In this document: piece by piece, positions 33,814 to 56,070 of the stretch
Numbering within the stretch: the first letter of the stretch is position 1
Layout: each line of letters opens with the position of its first letter
Assembly (NCBI RefSeq): GCF_000969415.1
Contig: NZ_JZEX01000119.1
Span: 1-64,000 of the forward strand
Direction of reading: 5' to 3'
Length of the DNA stretch: 64,000 nt
Source of the DNA: Devosia geojensis
GTDB taxonomy: Bacteria; Pseudomonadota; Alphaproteobacteria; Rhizobiales; Devosiaceae
Notes under the pieces: generated by a model
Told to the model about the DNA's origin: nothing
Database searches by the model: none
Seen by the model: the letters and a program-made list of their open reading frames with translations, nothing else
Made by a program: the position numbers and the translations under genes

Positions 33814-35268
33814 ATGGTTTACCACAACCTCTATACGCACTTCGCCAAGAAGGACCTTGTAAGAGTCGGGGTCATCGGTGCTGGAAACTACGGCACCGCC
33901 ATCGTCACCCAGGATCCGCACACTCCCTTGATGACTGTCGTCGCTGTGGCCGATATTTCCATAGAGGCGGCGCGGCAGGCCTATATCAAGACAGGCCTTG
34001 ATCCCGAGACGATCGTCTATTGTGCCGACCTCGACGCAGCGGAGGCGGCCCTGGCCGCCGGGCAGCGCGTCTATACGGATAATTGCCGCCTCGTCGCCGA
34101 GATCGGCGCCGTGGACATCGTCTGCGAGAGTACGGGCATACCGGAAGCGAGCGCCGTCTATGCCCTCGCTGCGATCAACAATGGCAAGCACGTGGCGATG
34201 ATCACCAAGGATTGCGACGTGACCATCGGACCGATCCTCAAACATCTCGCCTCGCAGGCGGGCGTCATCTACACGCCCGTGGATGGCGACCAGCACGGTC
34301 TTCTGATCCAGTTTTACGAGTGGGCGAGGTCGGTAGGACTGACCGTCCTCAGTGGCGGCAAGGCCACCGACGGAGAGTTCATTTATGACGAGGCCGCCGG
34401 CACGGTCACCATCAAGACCGACAAGAAGATCCATGCGCCTGCCGTCGAAACCATAACGATCGCACCCGAGGATCGCCCTTATCTCGGCATGATCCCGCAG
34501 GGCAAAGTGGAGGAGTACGTGGCAAGACGCGCGGAAATCCTCTCGCGCCTCCCCCAGCCGGGCGCCTACGATCTCTGCGAGATGACCATTGCCGCCAACT
34601 ACACGGGGCTCGCTCCCGCGGTCGACACGCTCCATCACGTTCCGATGCGGATCACCGAACTCCCCGTCGTCTACTGCGAGCGCGAACATGGTGGGCTGTT
34701 CGAGGGTCAGGAGCATATCGACCTTGCCACCTGCCTGCGCGGCCCGACCGAATCCGGACTTGGCGGCGGCGTCTTCCTGGTCGTTCGCTGCGACAACGCC
34801 TATTCCAATCACATCCTGACCACCAAGGGGCAGATCGCCAACTACGACGACACAGCGGCCGTCATCTACCGTCCCTACCACCTTTGCGGCGTGGAGACGT
34901 CCAGTACGCTGCTGCTGGCGGGGCTACTCGACATAGACACCGGTGCGCCGGACTTCCGCCCCCGCTACGATCTGGTGAAGGTTGCCTCCCGCGACATCGC
35001 CGTCGGCGAAATCTTCGGCAACGATCATAGCCCGCAGATGACGGCGCGCATCGTTCCGGCGCAGCCGGTCGGACCGGGTAATCTCGCCTGCGCCCATCTC
35101 CTCACCGGTAATCGTGCACGCGTCGACATTCCCACCGGAACGCCGATCACCTACGACATGGTCGAAGAACCGGCAGGATCATTCCTCTGGCGGTTGCGCC
35201 GCCAGCAGGACGCTGTGTTCGGCTTGGGGCATGAGGCAGAAGCGCTCGCCCCGGCCGGCATCGCCTGA
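33814..35268 (+). CDS. SAF-domain homoserine-dehydrogenase-like oxidoreductase (COG4091)
   Basis: 484 residues. The N-terminal Rossmann domain begins VRVGVIGAGNYGTAIVTQDP. The middle contains VCESTGIPEASAVYALAAIN and KHVAMITKDCDVTIGP, typical of the COG4091 family. The C-terminal SAF domain (about 385-470) includes VASRDIAVGEIFGND and RARVDIPTGTPITYDMV. Homologues act on branched or acid-sugar intermediates, and the reaction here is unproven. Start ATG at 33814 follows the upstream stop by seven bases, and the gene sits inside the cluster A operon. Confidence 0.85.
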   Translation: MVYHNLYTHFAKKDLVRVGVIGAGNYGTAIVTQDPHTPLMTVVAVADISIEAARQAYIKTGLDPETIVYCADLDAAEAALAAGQRVYTDNCRLVAEIGAVDIVCESTGIPEASAVYALAAINNGKHVAMITKDCDVTIGPILKHLASQAGVIYTPVDGDQHGLLIQFYEWARSVGLTVLSGGKATDGEFIYDEAAGTVTIKTDKKIHAPAVETITIAPEDRPYLGMIPQGKVEEYVARRAEILSRLPQPGAYDLCEMTIAANYTGLAPAVDTLHHVPMRITELPVVYCEREHGGLFEGQEHIDLATCLRGPTESGLGGGVFLVVRCDNAYSNHILTTKGQIANYDDTAAVIYRPYHLCGVETSSTLLLAGLLDIDTGAPDFRPRYDLVKVASRDIAVGEIFGNDHSPQMTARIVPAQPVGPGNLACAHLLTGNRARVDIPTGTPITYDMVEEPAGSFLWRLRRQQDAVFGLGHEAEALAPAGIA

Positions 35269-35277
35269 GACAACGGC

Positions 35278-35937
35278 ATGTCCCGGATCGTCCTTCTCCA
35301 CGCAACCTCGGTCGCCATCGAACCGGTGAAGCAGGCTTTCGACGCCCACTGGCCCGAGGCAGAGCTGATCAATCTGCTCGATGACGGCTTGAGCGTCGAC
35401 CGCGCCCGGGATGCGGGGCTGACCGAGGCGATGATCGACCGGTTTACCGCTCTCGGCCGCTACGGCGCCGCCCATGGAGCCGAGGGTATCCTCGTTACCT
35501 GCTCGGCTTTCGGTCCGGCGATCGATCGGCTTGCCGCCGGGCTCGATATCCCGGTGCTGAAACCCAATGAGGCCATGTTCCGCGCCGCCATCGACCTTGG
35601 CGCACGAATCGGCATGTTGGCCACCTTCGCGCCCGCCATCCCCACCATGGAGGAGGAATTCAACGACTTCGCCAGAAGCGCCGGAACGGCGGCCACTTTG
35701 GAAACTATTCTGGTCGAAGGCGCCATGGCGGAGTTGCGCGCCGGCAATGTGGCGCGGCACAATGACCTGGTAGCGGCACAGGCTCTCGCGCTTGCGGGAT
35801 GCGACGCGATCATGTTGGCTCAGTTTTCCACCGCGCAGGCGGCCGGCAAGGTCGGCGCCAAGGTGGACGTGCCGGTGCTGACGGCACCCGAAGCCGCGGT
35901 GGAACGCATGAAGGTGCTGGTTCTGGGAGGGGAATGA
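35278..35937 (+). CDS. Asp/Glu racemase-superfamily protein with one catalytic cysteine
   Basis: 219 residues of the aspartate/glutamate/hydantoin racemase fold. The first cysteine motif is present at VTCSAFGP (C75). The second, normally LGCT or similar, is replaced by LAQFS at about 180-184, so a classic two-base racemization is unlikely. The protein is embedded between a dehydrogenase and a DUF1537 kinase gene. There an isomerase converting a 2-oxo to a 3-oxo acid sugar is needed, a step done by OtnI in known tetronate pathways. That assignment is a hypothesis. Confidence 0.75.
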   Translation: MSRIVLLHATSVAIEPVKQAFDAHWPEAELINLLDDGLSVDRARDAGLTEAMIDRFTALGRYGAAHGAEGILVTCSAFGPAIDRLAAGLDIPVLKPNEAMFRAAIDLGARIGMLATFAPAIPTMEEEFNDFARSAGTAATLETILVEGAMAELRAGNVARHNDLVAAQALALAGCDAIMLAQFSTAQAAGKVGAKVDVPVLTAPEAAVERMKVLVLGGE

Positions 35938-37206
35938 ATGCTGCTGGGGGTTATTGCCGACGACTTCACGGGGGCGAGCGATATCGCCAATACACTCTCC
36001 AAGGGCATTCCGAACCAGGGCGGGTTGCGAACCGCCCAGTTCATGGGAATCCCCGATACGCCGGCACCGACGGACGTGGAAGCGGGCGTGGTAGCGCTTA
36101 AGTCGCGATCGATCCCCGCGGCGGAGGCGGTCGAACAATCGCTGACGGCCCTCGACTGGCTGCGGGCACAGGGCTGCCGACAGATCGTCTTCAAATATTG
36201 CTCCACCTTCGATTCAACGCCCGACGGCAATATCGGTCCGGTTGGGGAAGCGTTGGCGCATGCGCTCGACGCCAAGGGGGTGATCGCTTGCCCGGCCTTT
36301 CCCACGATGGGGCGGACAATTCATCAGGGGCATCTGTTCGTCCACGATCGGCTGCTGAACCAATCGGGCATGGAGAAACATCCGCTGACGCCGATGACCG
36401 ATCCAGACCTGCGCCGGTGGCTCGGCCGGCAATGCCAGGACCCCGTCGGCCTGGTGGCTGCGAGCCTGGTGCGCCAGGGACGGGACGTGGTGCGCCAGGC
36501 ATTTGCGGGTGCCGCCCAGCGGGGCGAGACCTTGGTCATTGCAGATGCCGCGACGGACGAGGACTTGCTGGTGCTTGCCCAGGCGGCCGCCGACGCCCCC
36601 CTACTCACGGGCGGCTCGGGTATTGCACTGGGCCTTCCCGCCAACTTCATCGCCCGAGGAGAGGCGGACGGCGCCGGCGTGGCATTCGACGGCGTGGCCG
36701 GGCCCGAAGCAATCCTTGCCGGCAGCTGCTCCGGTGCCACGCGGGGACAGATCGACCTGCATGCAAGCAACCATCCTGTCCTGCGCATCGACGTCGATGC
36801 CGTCATGACAGGCAGGCTGCAAGCGGAGGAGGTGGTACGGTTCCTGTTCGACAATAGCGGGCAAGCGCCACTCGCCTATTCGTCGAGCCCGCCTGAAGTG
36901 GTCGCCGCCATGCAGGATCAATATGGTCGCGAGGCCGTGTCCGACCGGCTGGATACGCTCTTTGCCGATGTCGCCGTCGCAATGCGCAGGAAGGGCGTTC
37001 GGCGCCTGATCGTTGCAGGCGGCGAGACCTCCAGTGCCGTGGCTCAGGCGCTCGAGCTTGGAGCGCTTGCCATCGGCCCGGAAATCGATCCCGGTGTCCC
37101 GATCCTCACCGACATGGACAACACGATTGCCCTGGCGCTGAAATCGGGCAATTTCGGTGCGCCTGATTTCTTCGCCAAGGCATTGCAGCGGATGGAACGG
37201 CCATGA
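35938..37206 (+). CDS. DUF1537 four-carbon acid sugar kinase (OtnK-like)
   Basis: 422 residues, standard for the DUF1537 family of 3-oxo-tetronate and related kinases. The N-terminus MLLGVIADDFTGASDIANTL holds the conserved ADDFTGA substrate motif, and FCPAFP-like residues appear as IACPAFPTMGRTIHQGHLFV. The C-terminal nucleotide-binding end carries VAGGETSSAVAQALELG. ATG follows the upstream TGA directly, and its own end overlaps the aldolase start. It phosphorylates a 3-oxo-tetronate (or close analogue) at the terminal carbon. Confidence 0.9.
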   Translation: MLLGVIADDFTGASDIANTLSKGIPNQGGLRTAQFMGIPDTPAPTDVEAGVVALKSRSIPAAEAVEQSLTALDWLRAQGCRQIVFKYCSTFDSTPDGNIGPVGEALAHALDAKGVIACPAFPTMGRTIHQGHLFVHDRLLNQSGMEKHPLTPMTDPDLRRWLGRQCQDPVGLVAASLVRQGRDVVRQAFAGAAQRGETLVIADAATDEDLLVLAQAAADAPLLTGGSGIALGLPANFIARGEADGAGVAFDGVAGPEAILAGSCSGATRGQIDLHASNHPVLRIDVDAVMTGRLQAEEVVRFLFDNSGQAPLAYSSSPPEVVAAMQDQYGREAVSDRLDTLFADVAVAMRRKGVRRLIVAGGETSSAVAQALELGALAIGPEIDPGVPILTDMDNTIALALKSGNFGAPDFFAKALQRMERP

Positions 37207-37841
37207 TCCTGGAACAGACCTTGCGCGGCGAGATCGTGCGTTTCGGCACCATGCTCTACCAGAAGGGATTGGCCCATGGCAGCGCGGGCAACCTCTCGGT
37301 CAGGCTGGAGGACGGTTCGATACTCGTGACGCCGACCAACTCTTCTCTGGGCTTTCTCGAGCCGCAACGGATCTCGAAGGTGTCGCGTGAAGGCGAGTTG
37401 CTTTCCGGCGATCCGCCCTCCAAGGAGGCGTTCTTCCATCTCGCCGTCTACGAGCAGCGGCCGGAAGCGAGGGCGGTTGTCCATCTGCATTCCACCCACA
37501 GCGTCGCGATGTCATGCCTCTGCCACGACGACCCGGCTGACGTCCTGCCGCCACTGACCGCCTACGCTGTCATGCGCGTCGGAAAATTACCGCTCCTGCC
37601 CTATTTCCGGCCCGGCGACCGCAAGCTGGCCGCGTGTGTTCGTTCGGCGGCGCAGGATCATCGCGCCATGCTACTCGCCAACCACGGTCCTATCGTTTCA
37701 GGATCCAGCCTGGCCGAAGCGGTCTTTGCCTACGAGGAATTGGAGGAGGTGGCCAAGCTGTTCTTCCTGACCGATGGACGCAAGACATCACCGCTCAGCG
37801 CGGCCGCCATCGCCGAACTCAACGCCGTGTTCGGTAACTAG
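37203..37841 (+). CDS. Class II aldolase/decarboxylase (OtnC-like)
   Basis: 212 residues, class II aldolase/adducin fold. Metal and active-site motifs are GSAGNLSVRLEDG, PSKEAFFHLAVYEQRP (catalytic Glu) and VVHLHSTHSVAMSCL (metal His pair), then LANHGPIVSG. OtnC enzymes decarboxylate 3-oxo-tetronate 4-phosphate to dihydroxyacetone phosphate. The coupling to a DUF1537 kinase (four-base ATGA overlap) strongly supports that role. It is the last gene of the cluster A operon. Confidence 0.88.
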   Translation: MILEQTLRGEIVRFGTMLYQKGLAHGSAGNLSVRLEDGSILVTPTNSSLGFLEPQRISKVSREGELLSGDPPSKEAFFHLAVYEQRPEARAVVHLHSTHSVAMSCLCHDDPADVLPPLTAYAVMRVGKLPLLPYFRPGDRKLAACVRSAAQDHRAMLLANHGPIVSGSSLAEAVFAYEELEEVAKLFFLTDGRKTSPLSAAAIAELNAVFGN

Positions 37842-39478: not shown

Positions 39479-40318
39479 CTACGCATGACGAGGTGAAAGA
39501 CCGACGAACGCCTCGACCTGATCCCGAATGGCGATCTCAGTCGGCAATCGCTCCATGGAGCTGGCGCCATAGAAGCCGTGGCAAAGCCTAGTGCGCTCAA
39601 GCACGTATAGGGCATCTCGCGGCATCGCGATGGGCCCGCCATGGCAGAGGACGATCACGTCATCCTTGACGGAGCGTGCCGCGTTGGCCCACGCGTCGAT
39701 CTTCTCGATGCAATCGTTGAGAGTCAGCGCCGTTTCGGCCCCGATCGCCCCGCCGGTGGTCAATCCCAGGTGGCACACGATAATGTCGGCCCCGGCCCCC
39801 GCCATCGCCGCCGCATCAGCCTCACTGAAGACATAGGGCGTGGTCAGGAGATCTATGTTTGCCGCCCGCGCGATTATCTCGACTTCGAGCTCGTAGCTCA
39901 TGCCGGTCTCCTCGAGATTGGCCCGGAACACACCGTCGATGAGCCCGACCGTCGGGAAGTTCTGCACGCCGGCAAAGCCGACGCGCTTTAGGTCGGCAAG
40001 GAACGTATTGGGCAGCATGAAGGGGTCCGTGCCGTTGACGCCTGCCAGCACCGGTGTGTGGCGTACGACTGGCAGGACCTCGCGCGCCATCTCGACGACG
40101 ATGTCGTTGGCATTGCCATAGGCCATCAGCCCGGCAAGGGAACCGCGGCCCGCCATGCGGTAGCGCCCGGAGTTGTAGATGACGATGAGATCGATGCCGC
40201 CGGCCTCCTCGCACTTGGCCGACAGACCGGTGCCGGCCCCTCCCCCGATGATGGGGCGGCCGGAGGCAATCTTGGCGCGCAGCTTATCGAGGATCTGCGA
40301 ACGGGACGGACGGTTCAT
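39479..40318 (-). CDS. Phosphoenolpyruvate hydrolase family TIM-barrel protein (Tm-1 C-terminal domain type), cluster B
   Basis: 279 residues from the ATG at 40318. The sequence contains [51 protein letters not shown] and [11 protein letters not shown]. These match the family named 'phosphoenolpyruvate hydrolase' or TIM-barrel signal-transduction domain (PF09370), whose activity is not established. The same domain forms the C-terminal half of plant Tm-1. Its start overlaps the stop of the Tm-1-like gene by four bases. A second copy of the pair lies at 54832-56901. Confidence 0.88.
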
Positions 40319-41529
40319 GAGCGGTTTGACCTTTCGATGTCTTTGTAGTTCCGGACCAGCGCCGCGGCGAACTCGGGATCGTTGACGTGCAGGTCGAGCT
40401 CGATCAGTCGCCGGTTCGGCGCCTCTGCCCACCCGGAGCGGATGGCCTCGAAGAGCGCCGCGTTCGCATCGGGATCATGGAAGGGCTGGCCGGGAGCGTC
40501 GATCGCCGAGACGCCGCGCAGCGGCAGGAGGAACCGTGTCGGTCCCCGCATCCTGTTGAGCCGTTCGACGAGGAATTCCCCGAACCAGCGGTTCTCCTCG
40601 GGTGTCGTGCGCATCAGGGTGATCTGCGAATTGTGGATATGGAGGCGCCGCTGCGTGAAGGCCTGCGGCACGGTCTCGCGGCCGCCGAAATTGACCATGT
40701 CGAGCGCACCGACCGAACCCACATAGGGGCAATGCGTGCGGATCACGGCGCCGAGCCGGTCCTGCGTCGCGGCGAAGACGCCGCCGACGACGAGATCGGC
40801 AACCTCGGTGGTGGTGACGTCGATGATGCCGTCGAGAAGCCCGGAATCGAGGAGCTTTTCCATCGACTGGCCACCGATCCCGGTGGCGTGGAAGGTGAAG
40901 ACCTCATGGTCCTCCTCCAGGGCCTCGCGCGCCATCGTGACACACGCGGTCGTGACGCCGAACATGGTCATGCCGACGCTCGGCCGGTCGGCTGACGCCG
41001 CCGGCGCCCGGTTGAGCGCCATGCCGGCGGCCGCATGCGCGGCATTGCCGATGACGGTGCGCGAGATGGCGTTGAGCCCGGCGATGTCGGTCACCGAATA
41101 CATCATGGTAAGGTCATTGGGCCCGACATAGGGCGCCACGTTTCCCGAAGCGACGGTCGAGACCATAACCTTGGGCGTGCCGATCGGCAGGCTGCGCATC
41201 GCCTGCGTCACCAACGCCGTGTTGCCCGTACCGCCGAGACCCAGGATCGCGCCGATATCGCGCCGGGTCGCAAGGTACGCCGTCAGCGCCTCGCCCATCG
41301 CCGTCACGGCCTGCCCGCGATCGGAAAGACCGAGCACGGCCTGTGCCCCGCCCGCGTGGTGCAGCGCGACCGTTTCGGCAGGGACCGCCGGCACCACTCC
41401 GCTCGGCGGGCCGGCCGTACCGACGTCGACAATCTCCGGCCGTGCGCCGGCCGCCGCGACACGCTCGGCGGCGTAGGCAAGCTCAGACCCCTTGGTATCG
41501 CACGTGCCTACGATGAGAACGGTGCTCAT
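40315..41529 (-). CDS. Tm-1-like ATP-binding protein (UPF0261), cluster B
   Basis: 404 residues from the ATG at 41529 (RBS AGGAGGAG). The start [20 protein letters not shown] carries the DTK-x-x-E motif of UPF0261. [20 protein letters not shown] and [17 protein letters not shown] match the nucleotide-binding and adjacent loops of the tomato Tm-1 N-terminal domain. The bacterial role is unknown; an ATP-dependent sugar-modifying step is one possibility. It is coupled to the TIM-barrel gene and divergent from the GntR gene of cluster B. Confidence 0.88.
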
Positions 41530-41625
41530 GGCCATCTCCTCCTGTTGCGGCCGTTCCTTTGCGGATCGTTCACACACGTCGGCCTCTGCGCGTTAGGATG
41601 CGCCTGCGCTCATTCAATATGCAAG

Positions 41626-41654
41626 ATACAAAATATTCAATTTCTATATTGTAT
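41626..41654. promoter_or_regulatory. Candidate GntR operator in the cluster B divergent promoter
   Basis: Half-sites ATACAA (41626-41631) and TTGTAT (41649-41654) form an inverted pair. The interior is AT-rich (AATATTCAATTTCTATA). ATACAA/TTGTAT halves resemble FCD-GntR operators. It lies about 97 bp before the Tm-1-like start and 49 bp before gntR, so one dimer site could serve both promoters. Confidence 0.5.
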
Positions 41655-41703
41655 ATTCTTCAGATGCACTGCATACTGCAGCCACATCGAACTCGGACCG
41701 ACC

Positions 41704-42357
41704 ATGAACGCCCCACGCCATCTCACCCTTCGCGAGCGCATCTACGAGGAGATCGTCCGCATGATCGTTTCAGGGGAGTTGCCGAGCGGCGCGCCGCTTG
41801 ACGAGAAGGCGCTGACGGAGCGGTTGCAGGTCAGCCGCACGCCGTTCCGCGAGGCTCTGGGCACGCTCGCCAAGGAAGGCCTCATCGAGATCCGCCCTTA
41901 CCGCGGCTTCTACGTGCGCAGCTTCTCGCGCAAGGAAACCGAGGACCTCTACGAGCTGCGCAAGACCCTCGAGTGCTTCGCCGTCGAGCTGGCCGTGCCG
42001 CATATGAGTGACCGCCACATCGAGCAGTTCGAACGCATCCTCGATGCCGCCGTCGGCGCCCTGCAGGCGGGGGACATCCAGGCATACGGCCTGCACGACA
42101 AGGAATTTCACGAGACGATTTCCGAGCTTTCCGGCAACGCCGCGCTCATCGAGACGCTCGCGCGCCTGGCGCTGCAGATCCAGGTCGGGCGCACCATCGC
42201 CAACGAAAGCAAGGTCTTCGCCGAGCGCGCCATCCGCGAGCGCGACGACATCCTGGCGGCCTTCCGCGAGCGCAACATCGCACGCGCAAGGCAGCTCATG
42301 CACGCCCACATCTCGGACGTCCAGCGCGCGGTGCTGGAGCGGTTCGAAGGCGAATAG
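41704..42357 (+). CDS. GntR family regulator (FCD subfamily), cluster B
   Basis: 217 residues. The HTH is DEKALTERLQVSRTPFREAL, with wing GLIEIRPYRGFYVRSFS. FCD residues are LYELRKTLECFAVELA, LHDKEFHETISELSGN and RERDDILAAFRERNIARARQ with HAHISDV. All metal-binding helices are intact, in contrast to the GntR at 37848. It begins the rightward cluster B operon (SBP gene 82 bp downstream) and is divergent from the Tm-1 pair. Confidence 0.9.
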   Translation: MNAPRHLTLRERIYEEIVRMIVSGELPSGAPLDEKALTERLQVSRTPFREALGTLAKEGLIEIRPYRGFYVRSFSRKETEDLYELRKTLECFAVELAVPHMSDRHIEQFERILDAAVGALQAGDIQAYGLHDKEFHETISELSGNAALIETLARLALQIQVGRTIANESKVFAERAIRERDDILAAFRERNIARARQLMHAHISDVQRAVLERFEGE

Positions 42358-42439: not shown

Positions 42440-43693
42440 ATGACCAAACCCAAAGGACTTGCCCTGGCACTGGGGCTGCTGACGTCCGTCGTCATGGCGC
42501 CGGCCGCCTACGCTCAGACATTGACAGTATGGGGGTCTGAGCAGCAGTCAGACCCGCTTGTCGCCGAACTCTGGGAGGAGATCGCGACGAGCTTCGAGGC
42601 AAAGCACGACGGCGTCTCGGTCGAGTACATGGCGCCGACCGGCAACATCTCCAACGGCGCCGTGCAGGCGGCCATCCAGTCCAACGCCGGGCCGGACGTG
42701 CTGCTGACCAATTCGGGCATCGGCCGGGTGACGATCGTCGCCGAGGCCGGCCTGGTGCTCCCGCTCAGCGACCAATATGCCGAATACGGCTGGGACACCA
42801 AGCTCTACCCCTGGCTCTACGAGGAGCTGAAGACCCAGTTCGACGGCGAGCTCTACGAGGTTCCGGACGGGATCGACGCCATCGGGCTCTGGTACCACAA
42901 GGACCTCTTCGAGCAGAACGGCTGGTCGCTCGACGGCGGCTGGGCGGACTTCACGGCGACGCTCGATTCCATCCGCGGCGCCGGCATGGAGCCGATCGCG
43001 GTCGGCGTGCGCGGCTGCTGCAACGGTGGGCACCTCTTCGGCAACTTCCTGCAGGCCGCGGCCGGCAGCGAGGTGATGGGCCATGTGATGAAGGGCGAAG
43101 TTCAGTGGGCCGACCCTGCTCCGCTCTCGGGCGCCCAGAATCTCATCGAGGCGGTCAAGGCCGGCTATATCAGCCCGCAGATGACCGGGCTCGACCAGGA
43201 CGCCGCCATCCGCCTCTGGGTGAACAAGCGCGCCGCGCTCTTCGTCGGAGGCCCCTGGTTCATCGGCAACGTGCGCCAGAACGGCTACGACGTCGCCAAC
43301 CTCGGCTATGCCCCAATCCCGAGCGACCTGCCCGAAGGCTCGCGCCCGACCGGCGGCGTCGGCTGGTCGTGGATGGTGCCGACGAGCAGCGACCAGCCCG
43401 AGCTCGCCTTTGCCTGGATCGACCATATGCTCTCCGACGAGATCATGACGCTGCGTGCCGAACACCCGACCGGCAACCAGATGATGTCGCGCGACCTGCC
43501 CGACATCCAGCCGGCCGTGGCGGTGATGTCGGAAGTCTATGCGGCGGCGGCCGAAGGGGTCGGCTACAACCCCAGCGTCTACATCCCGGGTGCGGCGCTC
43601 GACACCTATTACCAAGTGATCGGTGGCCTCATCGGCGGCCAGGTTTCCGCCGGGGACGGCATGGCCCAGATCGACGCACGCATGGGCGACTGA
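42440..43693 (+). CDS. CUT1 extracellular solute-binding protein, cluster B
   Basis: 417 residues. Signal MTKPKGLALALGLLTSVVMA with cleavage after AYAQ. The mature protein starts TLTVWGSEQQSDPLVAELWE, typical of SBP_bac_1. A central adjacent-Cys pair sits in VGVRGCCNGGHLFGNFL. The C-terminus LIGGQVSAGDGMAQIDARMG is standard for CUT1 proteins. RBS AGGAGGAG precedes the ATG. It provides the ligand to the two permeases downstream. Confidence 0.92.
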   Translation: MTKPKGLALALGLLTSVVMAPAAYAQTLTVWGSEQQSDPLVAELWEEIATSFEAKHDGVSVEYMAPTGNISNGAVQAAIQSNAGPDVLLTNSGIGRVTIVAEAGLVLPLSDQYAEYGWDTKLYPWLYEELKTQFDGELYEVPDGIDAIGLWYHKDLFEQNGWSLDGGWADFTATLDSIRGAGMEPIAVGVRGCCNGGHLFGNFLQAAAGSEVMGHVMKGEVQWADPAPLSGAQNLIEAVKAGYISPQMTGLDQDAAIRLWVNKRAALFVGGPWFIGNVRQNGYDVANLGYAPIPSDLPEGSRPTGGVGWSWMVPTSSDQPELAFAWIDHMLSDEIMTLRAEHPTGNQMMSRDLPDIQPAVAVMSEVYAAAAEGVGYNPSVYIPGAALDTYYQVIGGLIGGQVSAGDGMAQIDARMGD

Positions 43694-43730: not shown

Positions 43731-44687
43731 ATGTCGAACGACACGACCAGGGCCGGACGCGCGGGCGCGATTGCCGCCCGCGCCGCTCCAGCCGCTGCCG
43801 AAACCTACAAGGACGGCTCGCAGGACAGCGCCGTGACGGGCTTTGCCCTGCTGCTGCCGGCCATCGCGCTCTACGCGGCCTTCTCGCTGCTGCCTATCCT
43901 GGTGACCATCTGGATCAGCTTCACCAATTCGGGCGGTTTCAATACGCAGGCCGAGTTCGTGGGTTTCGACAACTATCTGCGCGCCACGCAGGATCCGATC
44001 ATCTGGCAGAGCCTGCTGCGAACGTTCCTCTGGCTCATCTATCACGTCGTGCTGGCTGGCGGCCTCGGATTGCTCATGGCGCTGGCGATCAGCGCCATGT
44101 CGCGGGGCCGCGTGTTCTTCCGCACCGCGCTCTTCCTGCCGCACCTCGTTTCGCTGGCCGTCGTCGGCGTCATCTGGGCCAACATCTATGATCCGTTCTA
44201 CGGCCTCCTCAACACGGTGCTGCAGAACATCGGGCTCGGCGGCTGGATCCGCGGCTGGCTCTCCGAGCCGATGCTGGTCCTGTTCTCGGTGAACGTCGCC
44301 AGCTCCTGGCAGGGCTTCGGCCTCTACATGCTGCTCTTCATCGCTGGACTCCAGAACATCGACCGCAGCCTCTATGACGCAGCCGACGTCGACGGGGCGA
44401 CCGCCTGGCAGAAGCTCGTCCACGTGACACTTCCGGGCCTCCGGGACGTGATGACCTTCGTCATCTCGCTGGCGCTCATCAACGGCCTCAAGGGCTTTGC
44501 CACAGTCTTCGTCATGACCAACGGCGGTCCGTTCTACGCCAGCGAGATTATAACGACCTATATCTACCGGCTCGCCTTCTCGGCGCAGGATCACGGCCTC
44601 GCCGCCGTGCTCTGCATCATGATGAGCATCCTGGCCATCACCATCACCGTCACCTTCAACCGCTGGCGTGCAAGGGGGGCGGCATGA
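43731..44687 (+). CDS. CUT1 sugar ABC permease (MalF type), cluster B
   Basis: 318 residues from the ATG at 43731, chosen because it follows GGAGTGG and because the frame upstream overlaps the SBP gene. An Ala-rich cytoplasmic tail precedes helix 1 (TGFALLLPAIALYAAFSLLP). The EAA loop is LYDAADVDGATAWQKLVHVT followed by LPGL. It ends overlapping the next permease start by four bases. Confidence 0.92.
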   Translation: MSNDTTRAGRAGAIAARAAPAAAETYKDGSQDSAVTGFALLLPAIALYAAFSLLPILVTIWISFTNSGGFNTQAEFVGFDNYLRATQDPIIWQSLLRTFLWLIYHVVLAGGLGLLMALAISAMSRGRVFFRTALFLPHLVSLAVVGVIWANIYDPFYGLLNTVLQNIGLGGWIRGWLSEPMLVLFSVNVASSWQGFGLYMLLFIAGLQNIDRSLYDAADVDGATAWQKLVHVTLPGLRDVMTFVISLALINGLKGFATVFVMTNGGPFYASEIITTYIYRLAFSAQDHGLAAVLCIMMSILAITITVTFNRWRARGAA

Positions 44688-45508
44688 CCTGGCTCCGCGA
44701 CTTCCGCATTCTCGTCGCCCTCGTTCCGTCGACGGCCGTCATCCTCGGCCCGTTCGTCTGGCTCATCGTCTCGAGCCTCAAGACCGAGGCCGAGATCGGG
44801 GCGGGCCATCCCTTCGACCTGCCCGACAACCTGATGTGGCAGAACTACGTCGATGCCTGGAACGTCGGCAGTTTCGGATCGCTCATCGGCAACAGCCTCA
44901 TCAACGTCGCCGGCGTCGTGGCGCTGATGCTCCTCGCCTGCGTGCCGGCCGGCTATGCGCTGGCCAAGATCCGCTTCCCCGGCCGCGAATGGGTGTTCTT
45001 CGGCTTCATCTTCGGGCTGACCATTCCCATCCAGGCCATCATCATCCCGCTCTACCAGCTGTTGCAGGGCCTCGGCCTCATCAACTCGCTGACGGGAGTG
45101 GTGCTGGCGCAGGTGAGCAACGGCATCCCCTTCGGCATCTTCCTCATGCGCTCCTTCTTCCTCGGTGTGCCCAACGAGCTGACCGAGGCCGCCAAGATCG
45201 ACGGCGCCAGCCACCTGCAGATCCTCGTCAAGGTATTCCTGCCGCTCTCCACCCCTGCCCTGCAGGCCCTGGTGATCATCTCGGCGCTCTCGACCTGGAA
45301 CGACTTCTTCCTGCCGCTGGTGGTGCTCATCAGCCCCGAGGTGCAGACCTTGCCGCTTGGCCTAGTGCGCTTCGCCTCCACCTTCACCACCCAGTACCGG
45401 CTGGTGTTCTCGGGCACGGTCATCACGTTCCTGCCCGTCATCATCCTCTTCATCCTCACGCAACGGCGCTTCACCGAAGGCCTGACCCAAGGTGCCCTGA
45501 AAGGCTGA
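44684..45508 (+). CDS. CUT1 sugar ABC permease (MalG type), cluster B
   Basis: 274 residues. First helix FRILVALVPSTAVILGPFVW with the lipid-facing segment following. EAA loop NELTEAAKIDGASHLQILVK then VFLPLS. The C-terminus FTEGLTQGALKG is characteristic of MalG-type subunits. ATG overlaps the preceding stop (ATGA), and the oxidoreductase gene starts two bases after its own stop. Confidence 0.93.
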   Translation: MTWLRDFRILVALVPSTAVILGPFVWLIVSSLKTEAEIGAGHPFDLPDNLMWQNYVDAWNVGSFGSLIGNSLINVAGVVALMLLACVPAGYALAKIRFPGREWVFFGFIFGLTIPIQAIIIPLYQLLQGLGLINSLTGVVLAQVSNGIPFGIFLMRSFFLGVPNELTEAAKIDGASHLQILVKVFLPLSTPALQALVIISALSTWNDFFLPLVVLISPEVQTLPLGLVRFASTFTTQYRLVFSGTVITFLPVIILFILTQRRFTEGLTQGALKG

Positions 45509-45510
45509 CC

Positions 45511-46602
45511 ATGACCCACCACGTCCCCCGCGACCTGCTCTATAATTTCGAGTACGACCGGCGCCTCAAGGCCTGCTTCATCGGCGCGGGCGGGCACGCC
45601 TACCGCAACGTCTATCCGACGTTCCGCTACGCGCCCGTCGATCTCGTCGCCCTCTGCGATCTCGACGAGAACCGCGCAAAGGGCGTCGCCCGGGTGTTTG
45701 GCGCCGAGCGCACCTATACCGACCACAACGAAATGCTGGTGACCGAGAAACCCGACGTCGTCTTCATCGTCACCTCCTACACCCCCGACGGGCACGTGCA
45801 GGCGACGGCGCTCGCCGGCGATGCCGTTCGCGCGGGCGCCCATGTGTGGATGGAAAAGCCGACCGCTGCATCGGTCGCCGAGATCGAGGAGCTGCAGGCG
45901 CTGAGCCGCGAGACGGGCAAGCAGATCATGACCGGTCTCAAGAAGACGTTCTTTCCGGCCATCGAGAAGCTCCGGGACATCATCGACGGCCCGTCCTTCG
46001 GGGCGCTGACCTCGATTTCCGTGCGCTATCCGCAAAATCTCCCCGCGCCGCAGGATCGTGGCAATCTCAACAAGATGCGCAGCTTTCTCGACCACATCTA
46101 CCATCCCGGCGCGATCCTCGGCTTCCTTGCCGGAGAGATCGAGCGGGCGAGCTACGAGTGGGAGCCGCGTACCGGATCGAGCATCACCACGTTCCGCTTC
46201 AAGTCCGGCGCCATCGGCCAGATGCACCTGACCGCCGGCCAGGCGCGTGGGGCGCCGCTCGAGCGGGTGGAGGTCGTCGGCGAAGGCAGCCATGCCATCG
46301 TCGAGAACGGCAACCGGCTGATCCACTACCGCCCCTCCAAGCTGCCGACCTACGGGCGCTCCTCTAGCTACATCCTGCCCGAGGACACCGCCCCGCTCCT
46401 CTACGAGCCCGAGTTCTCGCTCGGCCAGCTCTACAACAACAACATGTTCACACTCGGCTACGTGCCGGAGGTGCTGCACTTTTGCGAGACGGTGCTTGCC
46501 GACAAGTCGCTGACCAAGGGCACGCTCGAGGCCGCGCACCAGATCATGAAACTCTTCGAGTTCTACCGCACGACCGAACAGGGCGTGACCGCCTCGTTCT
46601 GA
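45511..46602 (+). CDS. Gfo/Idh/MocA family oxidoreductase, cluster B
   Basis: 363 residues. Rossmann start LKACFIGAGGHAYRNVYPTF with G-A-G-G-H in place of the usual GxGxxG. MEKPTAASVAEIEEL holds the catalytic Lys. Substrate-side residues appear in NKMRSFLDHIYHPGAILGFL, with H-x-x-H in the position of the usual H-x-x-D/H. It likely oxidises or epimerises the sugar imported by cluster B, in the cytoplasm. Confidence 0.87.
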   Translation: MTHHVPRDLLYNFEYDRRLKACFIGAGGHAYRNVYPTFRYAPVDLVALCDLDENRAKGVARVFGAERTYTDHNEMLVTEKPDVVFIVTSYTPDGHVQATALAGDAVRAGAHVWMEKPTAASVAEIEELQALSRETGKQIMTGLKKTFFPAIEKLRDIIDGPSFGALTSISVRYPQNLPAPQDRGNLNKMRSFLDHIYHPGAILGFLAGEIERASYEWEPRTGSSITTFRFKSGAIGQMHLTAGQARGAPLERVEVVGEGSHAIVENGNRLIHYRPSKLPTYGRSSSYILPEDTAPLLYEPEFSLGQLYNNNMFTLGYVPEVLHFCETVLADKSLTKGTLEAAHQIMKLFEFYRTTEQGVTASF

Positions 46603-46617
46603 TTTCAGGAGATCCAA

Positions 46618-47001
46618 TTGTCTGCCGAAACCTACGTCTCTCGCACCACCGACGGCCAGAAGGTGCCGACCAGTTGGGGCGAGCTTAACTGGAAGATTAC
46701 CAACGACACCATGTCCGGCACGGAGATGACCCTAGGCACCTGCCGCATCGAGCCGGGCCAGCGTAATCCCCTCCACTCGCACCCCAATTGCGAGGAGTTC
46801 CTCTACGTCATGTCCGGGTCCTGCGAGCACAAGCTCGGCGAAGAGGTGGTGACCCTCAACGCCGGCGACGTGATCCGCATCCCGCGCGACGTGCCCCATT
46901 GGGCGCGCTGCACCAGTTCCGAGCCGATGATCGCGCTCATCGTCTTCTCCTCGGGGGAACGGCGGGCCGTCGATCACGAAGAAGGCGGCGGCGTCGCCTG
47001 A
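46618..47001 (+). CDS. Cupin-domain protein, cluster B (TTG start)
   Basis: 127 residues, single cupin barrel. Motif 1 is NPLHSHPNCEEFLYVMSG with two His and a Glu as metal ligands. Motif 2 is NAGDVIRIPRDVPHWARC, with the last His. The frame opens with TTG at 46618 preceded by AGGAG; no ATG fits the conserved N-terminus SAETYVSRTTDG. Cupins in sugar operons are often epimerases or isomerases. The specific reaction is unknown. Confidence 0.85.
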   Translation: MSAETYVSRTTDGQKVPTSWGELNWKITNDTMSGTEMTLGTCRIEPGQRNPLHSHPNCEEFLYVMSGSCEHKLGEEVVTLNAGDVIRIPRDVPHWARCTSSEPMIALIVFSSGERRAVDHEEGGGVA

Positions 47002-47013
47002 AGGGAGGTCCCC

Positions 47014-48081
<1,068 letters not shown>

Positions 48082-48115: not shown

Positions 48116-49294
48116 CTATCGCTCAAGGCAGATCGCAACGCCCTGACCACCGCCGATGCACATGGTCGCAAGGCCCTTGCGTACATTGCGCCGCTGCATC
48201 TCGAGGATCAGGGTCACCACCATCCGCGCACCCGAACCGGCGAGCGGATGCCCAAGGGCGATGGCTCCGCCATTGACGTTGGCTTTCGCCACGTCCCATC
48301 CCATTTCCAGGTGCACGGCTATCGACTGCGCGGCGAAGGCCTCATTGACTTCTATCAGGTCGAGATCATCCGTTGTCCATCCAGCCCTTGCCAACGCACG
48401 GCGCGAGGCCGGCACCGGCCCCAGTCCCATCTCCATCGGCTCGACCCCGGCCGAGGCGTAAGCCGCGATGCGCACCAACGGTTCGAGCCCAAGGTCGCGC
48501 GCTCGTTCGTCGGACATCACCAAGAGGGCGGCTGCCCCGTCGTTGAGCCCCGAAGCATTGCCGGCCGTCACTGTTCCGCTTTCTTCGAAGATAGGCTTCA
48601 GCCCGGCGAGATCGGCCGCCGTCGTTTGCGGCCTGGGATGCTCGTCGGCATCGATGCGTACCGTGCCGCCCTTCACCTGAACATCAACGGGCACGATTTC
48701 CTCTGCGAATAGCCCCGCGGCTATAGCCGCGGCCGCCTTGCGCTGGGAGTCGAGTGCGAACGCGTCCTGCGCTTCACGCGTAACCTGATAGCGGCGCGCC
48801 AAGATCTCCGCTGTCACCCCCATATGCACACCATGGAACGCATCGACTAGGCCATCAACCATCATGGAGTCCTGCATCTCGACATTCCCGGTCTTGAAAC
48901 CGGCCCGGGACCTCTGCAGCACGTGGGGCGCCAAAGTCATATTGTCTTGGCCGCCAACCAGCACGACGTCGGCATCACTCGCCCGGATCGCCTGCGCTGC
49001 CATGTGCAGCGTTCGCTGCCCGCCGCCGCAGACCTGGTTGATGGTCGCCGCAGGCACCGAAATAGGCACGCCCCCTCCGATCGCCGCCTGGCGCGCGGGA
49101 TTCTGTCCAGCTCCAGCCTGCAGAACCTGACCGATCAGTACATCATCGATCATCGTTGGGTCGATATCGGTTTGCGACAGGACCGCGGCAATCGCACGGG
49201 CGCCGAGTTCGGTCGCGGGTGTGGTGGAGAAACTTCCACTAAACCGGCCTATGGCTGTTCTTTTTGCGGCGACAATGACTGCATCTCGAGACAT
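48116..49294 (-). CDS. Acetyl-CoA C-acetyltransferase (thiolase)
   Basis: 392 residues from the ATG at 49294, standard biosynthetic-type thiolase length. Catalytic residues are C89 ([14 protein letters not shown]), H349 ([13 protein letters not shown]) and C379 (CIGGGQGVA). The first motif has CGGG where CGSG is usual. It cleaves acetoacetyl-CoA to two acetyl-CoA or the reverse. Divergent from the acetoacetyl-CoA synthetase gene with a palindromic site between them, so the two enzymes probably act together on acetoacetate. Confidence 0.92.
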
Positions 49295-49378
49295 GTGCGC
49301 ACTTCCCGTCGAGACTCTATGCAACGCAGTCGGCAGAAAAAATACTGCTGCCGACTTGGCCGCCGGCATTCGGTGCTG

Positions 49379-49394
49379 TACCGTTCGGTCCATA
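49379..49394. promoter_or_regulatory. Variant TetR-type operator in the thiolase/AacS divergent promoter
   Basis: TACCGTTCGGTCCATA matches the cluster C site at 61216 in 13 of 16 positions and keeps the core ACCG-N2-CGGT. It lies 85 bp upstream of the thiolase ATG and 59 bp before the AacS ATG. A TATAAC follows at 49401-49406. Confidence 0.45.
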
Positions 49395-49452
49395 ACTGCT
49401 TATAACGAAGCACCGCGCCGATCACCACCCCTGCAACGATCGGGAAGGTGCG

Positions 49453-51402
49453 TTGGGGGAGAGAGTGGCGTCCGATATCGTCTGGTCTCCATCGGCAGCC
49501 TGGGTCCGGGATGCCAATATGACACGCTTTGCGCAGTCCATCGGATTTGCCGATTTGCCCTACGATATGATGCATCGTTGGTCGATCAGTGATCCGGGCG
49601 AGTTTTGGAGCGCCGTGTGGGACTTTGCCCGTGTTGTCGGCGACAAGGGCAGCGTAACCTTCGAGCCCCCACCGGACGGCACGATGCTCGGCGCCCGTTG
49701 GTTTCCAGAAGCACGCCTCAACTTTGCCGAAAACCTGCTGCGCGGTGCCGATAACGCACTCGCTGTTATCGAGAGCGACGAAACTGGCATTGCGCGTCGC
49801 GTCAGCATGGGCGAATTGCGGGCCCAGGTCGCACGCATCGCAGATGGTCTGTTACGTGCCGGTGTTGGTCCTGGCGACTGTGTCGGCGGCGTGCTGCCCA
49901 ATCGGATCGAGGGCCTCGTTGCCCTGCTCGCCACCGCCAGCATCGGCGCGGTGTGGTCCTCGTGCTCTCCGGATTTTGGCGCTGCCGCGATTCTCGACCG
50001 TCTTGGGCAAATCGCGCCCAAGGTGCTATTCGCAGCCCCACGCTACCGCTACGGCGGGCGCGAGCACGACATCGGCGCACGTCTGGCCGAAGTGGTCTCG
50101 GGCATTCCAAGCCTCAGCGCAATCGTCCTCACCGACGGCACCGACGCTCCGTTCGAGGCGACGTCGTGGCGGGAATTCGGCTCCGCCGGCGCCCTGTTGC
50201 GCTATGCGCGTCTGCCGTTCTCGCAGCCCCTCTACGTGCTTTATACATCCGGCACCACAGGCAAGCCGAAGGCCATCGTCCACTCTGCCGGTGGCGTGCT
50301 GCTGCAGCATCTCAAGGAACACCAGTTACACTGCGATCTCAAGCCCGGGGATACCATCGGCTGGTACACCAATACCGCCTGGATGATGTATCATTGGCTG
50401 ATCTCGAGTCTTGCCAGCGGCGCCACGATCGTCCTTACCGATGGTGCCGCGATCCCCAAAAGGGAAGATGGACTCGATGTCGGCCTGCTTTGGCGCCTAG
50501 TCGAGTCCGCCGGTCTTACGCACCTCGGCATCAGCCCCAAGTTCATGCATGCTGTCGCCGAAGCCGGCTATCGGCCCAGCGACCGGACCGACCTCGCGAC
50601 CCTCCGCGTGTTGATGAGCGCTGGCGCTCCCGTTGCGCCCGACCAGTACGATTGGGTCTACAGCGCCGTTAAACCGGACATGATGTTCGCTTCGATCTCA
50701 GGCGGCACGGAAATCATCGGCTGCTTCCTCATCGGATCGCCGACGCTGCCTGTCCGCCGCGGGCAGCTTACCTGCAAGGCGCTCGGCCACGCCGTCCAGG
50801 TCTTGGATACCCGCGGCGTGCCGGCTATCGGACGCAAGGGTGACTTGGTATGCACCGAGCCATTCCCGTCGATGCCGCTGACCTTCTGGGGGGAAGGCGG
50901 CGATGCGCGCTATTTCGACACCTATTTCTCTCAGCGCCCCGGTATCTGGACCCATGGTGACCTTGCCGAGGAGACGATCCACGGTTCCGGTGTCGTTTAT
51001 GGACGGACGGATACAACACTCAAACCTGGCGGCGTGCGCATCGGGACCTCAGAGATCTACGCCACAGTCGAGAAGTTCCACGAAATCGCCGACTGCGTCG
51101 TCTTCGGCGCCCCCAAGAACAACGACGAGGAGATCGTCCTTTGCCTGCAACCGGCCGGCGCCGGCATATCGCCGGACCTCGCCGCGCGCATCCGCAAGGC
51201 CATCCGCGAATCCGCCTCGCCCCGCCACGTGCCGCACCGCATCCATGCGGTTCCCGGCGTCCCCTATACGCTCAACGGCAAGCGCGTAGAGTCAGCGGCA
51301 CGCGCCGTCGTGATTGGCGAGATCGTCAAGAATCTGGATTCACTCTCCAACCCTGAAATCCTAGATTTCTACCGCAATCTCGCGCGAGAAACACCGCTGT
51401 GA
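49453..51402 (+). CDS. Acetoacetate-CoA ligase (acetoacetyl-CoA synthetase)
   Basis: 649 residues, the size of AacS-type ANL adenylating enzymes. The P-loop-like motif is LYTSGTTGKPKAIVHSAGG, then GWYTNTAWMMYHW and SGGTEIIGCFLIGSP, both typical of AacS. The hinge and C-terminal domain include YGRTDTTLKPGGVRIGTSEI and the catalytic Lys region PYTLNGKRVESA. It activates acetoacetate to acetoacetyl-CoA for the thiolase encoded divergently. The start of the next gene overlaps its stop (GTGA). Confidence 0.92.
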   Translation: MGERVASDIVWSPSAAWVRDANMTRFAQSIGFADLPYDMMHRWSISDPGEFWSAVWDFARVVGDKGSVTFEPPPDGTMLGARWFPEARLNFAENLLRGADNALAVIESDETGIARRVSMGELRAQVARIADGLLRAGVGPGDCVGGVLPNRIEGLVALLATASIGAVWSSCSPDFGAAAILDRLGQIAPKVLFAAPRYRYGGREHDIGARLAEVVSGIPSLSAIVLTDGTDAPFEATSWREFGSAGALLRYARLPFSQPLYVLYTSGTTGKPKAIVHSAGGVLLQHLKEHQLHCDLKPGDTIGWYTNTAWMMYHWLISSLASGATIVLTDGAAIPKREDGLDVGLLWRLVESAGLTHLGISPKFMHAVAEAGYRPSDRTDLATLRVLMSAGAPVAPDQYDWVYSAVKPDMMFASISGGTEIIGCFLIGSPTLPVRRGQLTCKALGHAVQVLDTRGVPAIGRKGDLVCTEPFPSMPLTFWGEGGDARYFDTYFSQRPGIWTHGDLAEETIHGSGVVYGRTDTTLKPGGVRIGTSEIYATVEKFHEIADCVVFGAPKNNDEEIVLCLQPAGAGISPDLAARIRKAIRESASPRHVPHRIHAVPGVPYTLNGKRVESAARAVVIGEIVKNLDSLSNPEILDFYRNLARETPL

Positions 51403-52553
51403 GACGTTCGCTCGGCTCCATTGCAGGGATCGGAGAACTGCCGGCCCAGCGCGAGACGCAGGGCGCTACTACCCTCGGCATGATCGCCGAAGTCGCGCGC
51501 CGGGCCGTCGCCGATGCCGGTCTCGAGCCCGCCGCCATTGATGGCCTGCTCGTCGGTCCGCAGGTCGGTGAGACGCCGCAGCATGTGCCCGCGACCGTTG
51601 CGGAGTATCTTGGCCTCATGCCGCGCATGGCCAACGTCGTCGATCTTGGTGGCGCTTCCGGTGCCGGCATGGTCTGGCGGGCGGCCGCTGCGATTTCGGC
51701 GGGCATGTGCGAGGCAGTGCTTTGCGTGCTCGCCAATACCCGCGAGGCAATGCAGGTACGGTCGCCCAACCGCAATCCTATCCGCGAGTTCGACGTGCCC
51801 TTCGGCGCATCGGGCGCCAACGCCACCTACGCCATGATCAAACAGGCGCATATGGCAGCATACGGCTCTCGCGACGTGGATTTCGCCCGCATCGCGGTCG
51901 CAGCCCGCGCCAATGCCCAGCGCAATCCCGATGCCATCTTCTGTGGCCAGCCCGCAACTATCGCCGACGTCCTCGCCTCTCCGATGATCGCAAGCCCCCT
52001 GCGCCTCTTCGAGATCGTCATGCGCGTAGCTGGCGGCGGGGCGGTTGTCGTCGTCTCACCTGAGCGAGCGCGCTCGTTGCCGCACGCGCCTGTCCACCTT
52101 CTCGGCGCCGGTGAGAAGGTGACCCATCGTGCCTTGTCACAGGCCCCCTCGCTCACCTCTGGCCCGCTGAAATCAGCAATGGCCCATGCACTAGCCACCG
52201 CGGGCATCGGCGCGGCTGAGCTCGATCTGCTCTCACTCTATGATTGCTACACCGTCATGGTCGCTGCCACTATCGAGGACCTCGGTCTCTGCCCGCCCGG
52301 GCGTTTCGGAGACTGGATCGCCGATCGCGACCTCGGCCCCGAGGGCGACACCCCGCTCAACACCCATGGTGGGCAGCTCGGCTTCGGCCAGCCTGATCTC
52401 GCCGGCGGCATGACCCATCTCACGGAGGCTGTGCGCCAGTTGCGCGGAACCACGCCCGGCAGGCAGATCCCAAATGCCGGCCTCGCCCTCGTCACCGGTA
52501 ACGGCGCGACGATGAGCGAGGCTACGGCGCTCGTGCTCGGAGCCGACGCATGA
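51399..52553 (+). CDS. Thiolase-fold protein (SCP-x/lipid-transfer-like), GTG start
   Basis: 384 residues. Starts MRRSLGSIAGIGELPAQRET and has a thiolase N-terminal pattern (LGMIAEVARRAVADAGLEPA, VVDLGGASGAGMVWRAAAAI) but no cysteine at the usual nucleophile position, where GGASGAG stands instead. The C-terminal part has LLSLYDCYTVMVAATIEDLG and NTHGGQLGFGQPDLAGGMTH. Such 'non-specific lipid-transfer' thiolases act with a DUF35 partner, encoded next. GTG at 51399 overlaps the AacS stop. Confidence 0.85.
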   Translation: MRRSLGSIAGIGELPAQRETQGATTLGMIAEVARRAVADAGLEPAAIDGLLVGPQVGETPQHVPATVAEYLGLMPRMANVVDLGGASGAGMVWRAAAAISAGMCEAVLCVLANTREAMQVRSPNRNPIREFDVPFGASGANATYAMIKQAHMAAYGSRDVDFARIAVAARANAQRNPDAIFCGQPATIADVLASPMIASPLRLFEIVMRVAGGGAVVVVSPERARSLPHAPVHLLGAGEKVTHRALSQAPSLTSGPLKSAMAHALATAGIGAAELDLLSLYDCYTVMVAATIEDLGLCPPGRFGDWIADRDLGPEGDTPLNTHGGQLGFGQPDLAGGMTHLTEAVRQLRGTTPGRQIPNAGLALVTGNGATMSEATALVLGADA

Positions 52554-54186: not shown

Positions 54187-54477
54187 TCACACCAGATGAT
54201 CGTGCTCGGCCAGCCTGGTCAGGATGGGCATCGCCCGCGCGACCGCCTTCTCGTGCTCCGGGTGGGCCAGGTAACGCTCCATAGTGGCCATGTCTTCGAA
54301 ATGCGCGATCAGGCAGTAACGGAACGAGCCCGCGCGCTTGCCGAGATCCTCCGTCAGCGACCAATCGAGTATTTCGGGGATCTTACCCGGCAGGGCGTTG
54401 AGGCCGGCAATGACCTCTTGAATCTCGCGTTCGGGAACATCGGCGTAATCGAAGAGGACGACGTGGCGGATGGTCAT
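54187..54477 (-). CDS. Dabb (stress-responsive A/B barrel) domain protein
   Basis: 96 residues. Begins MTIRHVVLFDYADVPEREIQ, the Dabb start, with EVIAGLNALPGKIPEILDWS and the C-terminal YLAHPEHEKAVARAMPILTR. Small ferredoxin-like dimeric proteins of this kind act as cyclases or have unknown roles. Start overlaps the stop of the cupin gene (ATGA). Last gene of the long minus-strand cluster C operon. Confidence 0.87.
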   Translation of the reverse strand: MTIRHVVLFDYADVPEREIQEVIAGLNALPGKIPEILDWSLTEDLGKRAGSFRYCLIAHFEDMATMERYLAHPEHEKAVARAMPILTRLAEHDHLV

Positions 54478-56064: not shown

Positions 56065-56070
56065 GATGGA

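Follow-up and report, generated by a model that had tools for sequence, protein, structure and literature searches.

A gene pair related to the two halves of plant Tm-1 beside ABC importers of Devosia geojensis, predicted to encode a kinase and a partner enzyme

In Devosia geojensis, members of the two protein families that make up the plant protein Tm-1 are encoded by overlapping genes next to an ABC importer. The best explanation for this arrangement, to which we give about an even chance, is a catabolic module in which import, phosphorylation by the UPF0261 protein and conversion by the TIM barrel would be consecutive steps, since the genes of an importer, UPF0261, the TIM barrel, a cupin and a Gfo/Idh dehydrogenase cluster in the pairs A and B described below and on the plasmid pNGR234a, and the last four of them also on pMLa. 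The pairing of the families and their co-evolution are already known, as passages of PMC5028733 (2016) report that UPF0261 is generally present where a genome encodes the TIM barrel, that the two families correlate at 0.886 in Mirrortree and that they are fused in plants; the evolutionary argument of the preliminary description, from plant fusion to bacterial partnership, is in print there. New are the four pairs in this genome, two of them in the analysed stretch of 64,000 nucleotides (the window), fusions of an ABC ATPase to UPF0261 and sigma-54-type activators headed by a TIM barrel without two histidines.

Occurrence and gene neighbourhoods of the two families

Pair A consists of two genes:

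40315-41529, minus strand: UPF0261 (Tm-1 N-domain) gene, 404 residues, PF23189 and PF06792; predicted small-molecule kinase
39479-40318, minus strand: PF09370 TIM-barrel gene, 279 residues (Pfam); predicted partner enzyme

As stated in the preliminary description, a UPF0261 protein of 404 residues precedes a TIM barrel of 279 residues with a four-base overlap, which is borne out by the coordinates, by Pfam and by the ATGA at 40318-40315 that is common to the stop of the former and the start of the latter gene. The order of transcription, UPF0261 followed by the TIM barrel, is the same as in tomato Tm-1. A start at an alternative in-frame ATG, located six bases farther upstream at 41535, would extend the UPF0261 protein to 406 residues. 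In the profile comparison both proteins were matched, the first with 290 bits to PF23189 and 198.7 bits to PF06792 (curated cut-offs 27), the second with 431 bits to PF09370 (cut-off 33.8; residues 8-272, profile positions 1-265 of 267), and they are thus full-length members of the UPF0261/Tm-1 N-terminal domain family and of the PF09370 family, each above the curated cut-offs. Solved relatives identified with phmmer are Tm-1 (3wrv, 3wrw, 3wry) and 9mpy for UPF0261 and 2p10 for the TIM barrel.

The following genes are divergent from pair A:

41704-42357, plus strand: GntR/FCD regulator (Pfam GntR and FCD on the longer open reading frame 41035-42357; start from the codon-usage gene call)
42440-43693, plus strand: CUT1-type solute-binding protein (PF01547)
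43731-44687 and 44684-45508, plus strand: two ABC permeases (PF00528 in both)
45511-46602, plus strand: Gfo/Idh/MocA dehydrogenase (PF01408)
46618-47001, plus strand: cupin, 127 residues (PF07883)
47014-48081, plus strand: ABC importer ATPase (PF00005, MalK-type OB domain)

The assignment to a sugar-import locus, also made in the preliminary description, holds for pair A with its divergent CUT1-type importer from 42440 and does not extend to the whole family, which elsewhere adjoins LIV/urea-type importers. On the other side, the window contains at 33814-37841 (plus strand) a 3-oxo-tetronate operon, in which OtnK (535.5 bits) and OtnC (317.8 bits) are accompanied by a gene resembling Asp/Glu racemases and which is adjoined by an oxidoreductase that combines a DRL catalytic domain with a SAF domain.

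A second pair in the window (pair B, 54832-56901, minus strand) shows the opposite gene order, with the TIM barrel ahead of UPF0261:

59776-61131, minus strand: solute-binding protein (PF01547)
57922-58797 and 58797-59651, minus strand: two permeases (PF00528 in both)
56898-57878, minus strand: Gfo/Idh/MocA dehydrogenase (PF01408)
56071-56901, minus strand: PF09370 TIM barrel, 276 residues (349.8 bits on the longer open reading frame 56071-57060; start from the codon-usage gene call)
54832-56064, minus strand: UPF0261, 410 residues (PF23189 276.8 bits, PF06792 184 bits)
54474-54839, minus strand: cupin, 121 residues (PF07883 on 54474-54800; start from the codon-usage gene call)
54187-54477, minus strand: Dabb (A/B barrel) protein, 96 residues (PF07876)

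These genes form one row from 61131 to 54187, with ATGA overlaps joining the stop of the Gfo/Idh gene to the start of the TIM barrel and the cupin to the Dabb gene. Between pairs A and B (48116-54177) lie genes for a thiolase, an AMP-binding (acetyl-CoA-synthetase-like) enzyme, a second thiolase-like protein and an MFS transporter.

The whole genome encodes four PF09370 and four PF06792 proteins, which form four pairs. Pair C (contig C191) follows an oligopeptide-type importer (SBP_bac_5, oligo_HPY ATPase) in the order TIM barrel, cupin, UPF0261 and short-chain dehydrogenase, with an RraA-like gene farther along, and pair D (contig C198) is found with a CUT1-type importer, a hydroxyisobutyrate-dehydrogenase-like gene, a cupin, UPF0261, the TIM barrel and an ABC ATPase. 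Sequence identity among the four pairs is 43-55% for UPF0261 and 48-70% for the TIM barrel. Every pair is accompanied by a separate importer and by a cupin, whose gene is located beside or between the pair genes in B, C and D and, in A, inside the importer operon that runs divergently. Such a set of four pairs, each with an importer to itself, may be something that specialists do not expect.

Across genomes, the two families co-occur far beyond chance. PF09370 was found above its cut-off in 25 and PF06792 in 31 of 241 genomes sampled from the class, and in 25 and 35 of 299 genomes sampled from the phylum; in either sample all 25 genomes with PF09370 contain both (Fisher p ~1e-28 in each, with samples that overlap in some genomes including the window's own). 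On the same strand and within 1.5 kb, PF06792 accompanies PF09370 at 27 of 35 places in the class (UPF0261 first in 21, second in 6) and at 31 of 36 in the phylum (first in 29, second in 2). These place counts leave out matches below the cut-off, short fragments with overlap to a longer match (e.g. G399:C144:5527-5724) and sub-fragments of single genes; G389 and G212 were entered as genomes and left out as places. We also assembled loci by their TIM barrel and used the best 80 of 560 confirmed named loci, where, judged from domain coordinates, a UPF0261 domain is located directly upstream of the TIM barrel on the same strand in 78 of the 80. Intergenic gaps are approximate because the UPF0261 starts are uncertain. 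In L031, UPF0261 is 9 kb away from the TIM barrel on the opposite strand, and in the stretch of L032 tblastn found none. The two families are on different contigs in the genomes G086 and G176, and no UPF0261 is annotated near the PF09370 gene of a Salinibacter plasmid.

The partnership proposed in the preliminary description, physical or metabolic, is well supported as a functional one, by co-occurrence, adjacency and four co-retained paralogous pairs. The same observations bear on the main rival of consecutive catabolic steps, a single two-subunit enzyme in which the TIM barrel would catalyse or bind and UPF0261 would drive the reaction with ATP, no phosphorylated intermediate being released and Tm-1 being the single-chain form. 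The direct adjacency in the best 80 loci argues for such an enzyme, as do the single chain in plants described in passages of PMC5028733 and the correlated divergence of the two proteins (r 0.79 over 88 pairs, a raw value that includes species relatedness). However, 6 of the 31 UPF0261-containing genomes of the class and 10 of the 35 of the phylum lack the TIM barrel, the order is reversed in 6 of 27 and 2 of 31 close pairs, respectively, and a cupin gene can separate the two (L089, L094), so that we regard a two-subunit enzyme as unlikely, if still worth serious attention.

The gene neighbourhoods were mapped with a codon-usage gene call for which the UPF0261 and TIM-barrel genes under study served as training set, as the longest-ORF call was too noisy in GC-rich DNA; L072, L098, L130, L135 and L139, with few or no genes called, are absent from these maps. 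Rhizobia, Devosia and Bosea share the cassette of pair A, in which a CUT1 importer, Gfo/Idh, a cupin and mostly GntR are divergent from UPF0261 and the TIM barrel (Gfo/Idh and cupin in 18 loci each among the best 80 of 560). On pNGR234a, importer genes are grouped with those for UPF0261, the TIM barrel, a cupin, Gfo/Idh and a sigma-54 regulator; pMLa has the last five of these together, and Bosea and Terrarubrum plasmids carry the same genes in an altered arrangement, in which the TIM barrel is followed by an SRPBCC gene. A second type of cassette combines UPF0261 and the TIM barrel with a LIV/urea-type importer and often with flotillin, SRPBCC, SRPBCC-ADH and VOC genes. In many of these LIV-type cassettes a flotillin/SPFH gene is located directly 3' of the TIM barrel (e.g. 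L048:10959-12611), the cluster being found in 23 of the 80 loci. For 28 of these loci, some of them on short contigs, the gene call gave neither a CUT1 nor a LIV importer gene; the importer figures are raw counts. On Vibrio and Xenorhabdus plasmids the pair adjoins a TetR gene with no importer annotated, and pairs are also present in haloarchaea. A single substrate for all pairs is unlikely because the contexts vary widely, from CUT1, LIV and Dpp-type importers to a TetR gene alone.

UPF0261 as a predicted kinase

The structure model of the UPF0261 protein of pair A (pLDDT 93.9) superposes on Tm-1 (3wrw) with a Z-score of 48.4 and an rmsd of 2.0 over 386 residues at 44% identity. It also matches 9mpy (Z 34.8, 389 residues, 30% identity), with an rmsd of 7.7 reflecting a poor whole-chain superposition. 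Latter entry, the sole solved bacterial relative among the matches listed, is according to its PDB title Saro_1862 with bound acetovanillone, and the family profile matches it with 312.5 bits. By eye, the motifs DTK, GG[ST], PK...ST.ASG, D..G.N, FH..G.GG, HN.....RT and ND..F are found in the family profile, in Tm-1 and in Saro_1862, and their residues are invariant or near-invariant in 47 homologues; the UPF0261 protein of pair A is thus homologous to Saro_1862 and shares its motifs. A passage of PMC13101465 (2026) states that in Novosphingobium aromaticivorans the single-component kinase MarK opens the catabolism of acetovanillone, and organism, ligand and family suggest that MarK is probably Saro_1862.

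Because of the match of the model to 9mpy, the statement on MarK and the common motifs, we take UPF0261 as a family of small-molecule kinases, and for the clade of pair A this activity, predicted from the homologue, appears quite likely when the kinase step is considered by itself. The view of the preliminary description that the bacterial function is uncharacterised is thus outdated for the UPF0261 half. Our literature search found no measured activity for any UPF0261 linked to a TIM barrel and no paper naming Saro_1862; the available passages of PMC13406360 contain none on MarK as a kinase, and those of PMC12607616 and PMC11837543 nothing on UPF0261.

In 33 of the 78 UPF0261 open reading frames from the best 80 of 560 loci, the UPF0261 part follows in frame on an ABC ATPase domain. 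All 33 fusions contain a Walker A pattern and LSGG, and Pfam confirmed PF00005, PF06792 and PF23189 in the eight that were submitted. The ATPase part of the one fusion scanned against NCBIfam matches UrtE best (209.6 bits, below the cut-off of 285.8) and LivF next, and 29 of the 33 loci contain a LIV/urea-type importer gene. The fusion thus ties the predicted kinase to uptake. On a UPF0261 tree calculated with a quick method, the distribution of the fusion requires two changes, its members coming from several families of alpha- and betaproteobacteria, and it may have a single origin. Two plasmid records annotate it just as 'ABC transporter permease' (L149:9004-11256, L150:7992-10154), and in the parts of the literature covered by our search we found no published description of this or of any other ABC-kinase fusion. 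The cassettes L145 and L146 combine the fused UPF0261 with flotillin, SRPBCC and a LIV importer in stretches where tblastn found no TIM barrel, which is present elsewhere in the respective genomes (G291, G351), and the predicted kinase can therefore work without a TIM barrel nearby. If active, the fusion would constitute an unusual coupling of uptake to phosphorylation, which specialists may not expect.

The TIM barrel and its copies in regulators

The model of the TIM barrel of pair A (pLDDT 83.8, residues 54-66 below 50) superposes on 2p10 with a Z-score of 36.6 and 1.9 Å over 259 residues at 65% identity. Next in structural similarity, though far lower, is 4ml9 (Z 18.9), whose title refers to a conserved phosphate-binding site, and the further rows are tied. 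2P10 is Mll9387 of Mesorhizobium, by its PDB title a 'putative phosphonopyruvate hydrolase', whose gene is probably the PF09370 gene in the row of UPF0261, TIM barrel, cupin, Gfo/Idh and regulator on pMLa. Our literature search found no statement of its activity and no paper naming mll9387, y4oP, y4oT, y4oU, y4oV or y4oX.

PF09370 also heads regulators: the ten submitted to Pfam all contain PF09370 and HTH_8, and nine, with the exception of L076, a sigma-54 domain above threshold. We aligned these ten with 48 stand-alone PF09370 proteins and compared 36 conserved polar positions. His183 and His226 are retained in all 48 stand-alone proteins, and in all 88 of a larger set that overlaps with these, and in none of the ten regulators, which have also uniformly lost K35, Y48, S50, T97, Q119 and T138, so that eight of the 36 positions are affected in all of them; E137, T187, S254 and E256 are lost in nine of the ten. 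Conversely, D43, R52, R54, S60, E80, N120, E145, S253 and E261 are retained in all ten regulators, which probably share one ancestor. In the model, the two histidines are placed at the ends of strands 6 and 7 or close to them, on the strand-end face that holds the active sites of TIM barrels. Since the histidines are lost in the regulators while the nine other polar residues stay, the stand-alone protein looks, from its sequence, like an enzyme and the regulator copy like a sensor of the same ligand. Such histidine-less sensor copies may again be something that specialists do not expect.

The regulators provide the main argument for a second rival, a regulatory pair in which the TIM barrel would receive a signal and UPF0261 would modify or report on it, and passages of PMC5028733 refer to the PF09370 domain as TIM-barrel signal transduction. 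Yet both histidines, which are retained in all stand-alone copies aligned, are missing from the regulators, the catalytic appearance of the stand-alone copies counts against a purely regulatory role, and GntR or TetR regulators already adjoin several pairs, which makes a regulatory pair improbable.

Two specific activities of the TIM barrel found no support. In class I (Schiff-base) aldolases an invariant lysine is located at a strand end. No lysine is invariant in the 48 proteins, and K35 (46 of 48), the sole near-invariant one, resides in the helix after strand 1, which speaks against such an aldolase. In the PEP mutase/isocitrate lyase superfamily, to which the Pfam name alludes, Mg is bound by acidic residues that follow strands 3 and 4. 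The corresponding segments, AGVNGTDPF at the end of strand 3 and QNFPT at strand 4, appear, compared by sequence, to be without the D-x-D and E of this superfamily, and 2dua (Z 16.7) and 1xg4 (Z 16.6) match the model no better than indole-glycerol-phosphate synthase. A true PEP/phosphonopyruvate hydrolase finds no support other than the name, the neighbours below 2p10 and 4ml9 being tied among many TIM barrels. Short divergent genes of 196 residues in two loci (L147:8268-8858, L148:3936-4526) are named 'phosphoenolpyruvate hydrolase family', and the one of L147 matches just the middle of PF09370 (73.7 bits).

Proposed pathway and relation to known systems

In the proposed catabolic module, the ABC importer of the locus would bring in a small molecule, and UPF0261 would use ATP to phosphorylate a hydroxyl of this compound or of its oxidation product generated by the Gfo/Idh dehydrogenase. 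The TIM barrel would act on the phosphorylated product as a lyase, hydrolase or isomerase, with a candidate active site at the C-terminal face that includes His183 and His226, and Gfo/Idh dehydrogenase and cupin would contribute further steps. For pair A, a sugar-like substrate is suggested by the CUT1 importer together with the Gfo/Idh and cupin genes, the ligand of the homologue Saro_1862 being aromatic.

The 3-oxo-tetronate operon at 35278-37841 offers another possible role for pair A, as an extension of four-carbon sugar acid catabolism, and its OtnK and OtnC equivalogs end 1.6 kb from the pair. However, this operon is on the other strand with a GntR gene in between, it has its own DUF1537 kinase, and a phmmer search (E 1e-10) of the DNA of 18 pair-A-type loci found no relative of OtnK or OtnC, by which we reject a common unit with pair A and consider such a link slightly less probable still than a regulatory pair. 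Anti-phage defence, by analogy with tomato Tm-1, would be in line with the homology to an antiviral plant protein and with some plasmid pairs that adjoin a TetR gene and lack an annotated importer next to them, but the four window proteins match no PADLOC family at E up to 0.01, by which we reject a defence gene, importer and enzyme contexts are common and Tm-1 itself binds tobamovirus replication proteins (as passages of PMC3855732 report), leaving this role highly improbable.

Taken further, the catabolic module may be part of a wider picture, which we put forward tentatively and judge rather doubtful as a whole. UPF0261 would couple import to phosphorylation, with a LivF/UrtE-like ATPase carrying its own kinase so that the solute would be phosphorylated and trapped on arrival, and the fused importer would do for ABC importers what group translocation does elsewhere. 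Its partner, the TIM barrel, would be a phosphate-recognising enzyme, whose domain would have been copied minus its two catalytic histidines into a substrate-sensing sigma-54-type activator, and plant Tm-1L would be a two-step metabolic enzyme of land plants that was later recruited against tobamoviruses. Tm-1-like genes are widespread in streptophytes, and Tm-1 is, according to the passages available, in use for tomato breeding. PMC5028733 proposes, in the passages available, that the full-length Tm-1-like protein should serve a function besides resistance, which we did not find named in the parts of the literature covered. The bacterial module, with an identifiable transporter, the predicted kinase half and a putative sensor derived from the other half, reduces the question of Tm-1 function to a few assays.

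Among known systems, tomato Tm-1 and plant Tm-1-like proteins (PDB 3WRV-3WRY) have both domain families in common with pair A, and their order as well. They differ in that the domains reside on one chain in plants, which defines Tm-1 proper, and on two open reading frames with a four-base overlap here, and in the antiviral use of Tm-1 as opposed to the importer locus of pair A; our comparison with Tm-1 covered its N-terminal (UPF0261) half. Saro_1862 (9MPY, probably MarK) shares the UPF0261 fold over its full length and the key motifs, but its sequence is only 30% identical and its ligand is an aromatic ketone, in contrast to the CUT1 sugar-type importer in the locus of pair A. A parallel is provided by OtnK/OtnC and the Arabidopsis L-threonate protein LTD, in which, as passages of PMC12540250 describe, a bacterial kinase and further enzymes correspond to one multi-domain protein of land plants, although these belong to other protein families than UPF0261 and the TIM barrel.
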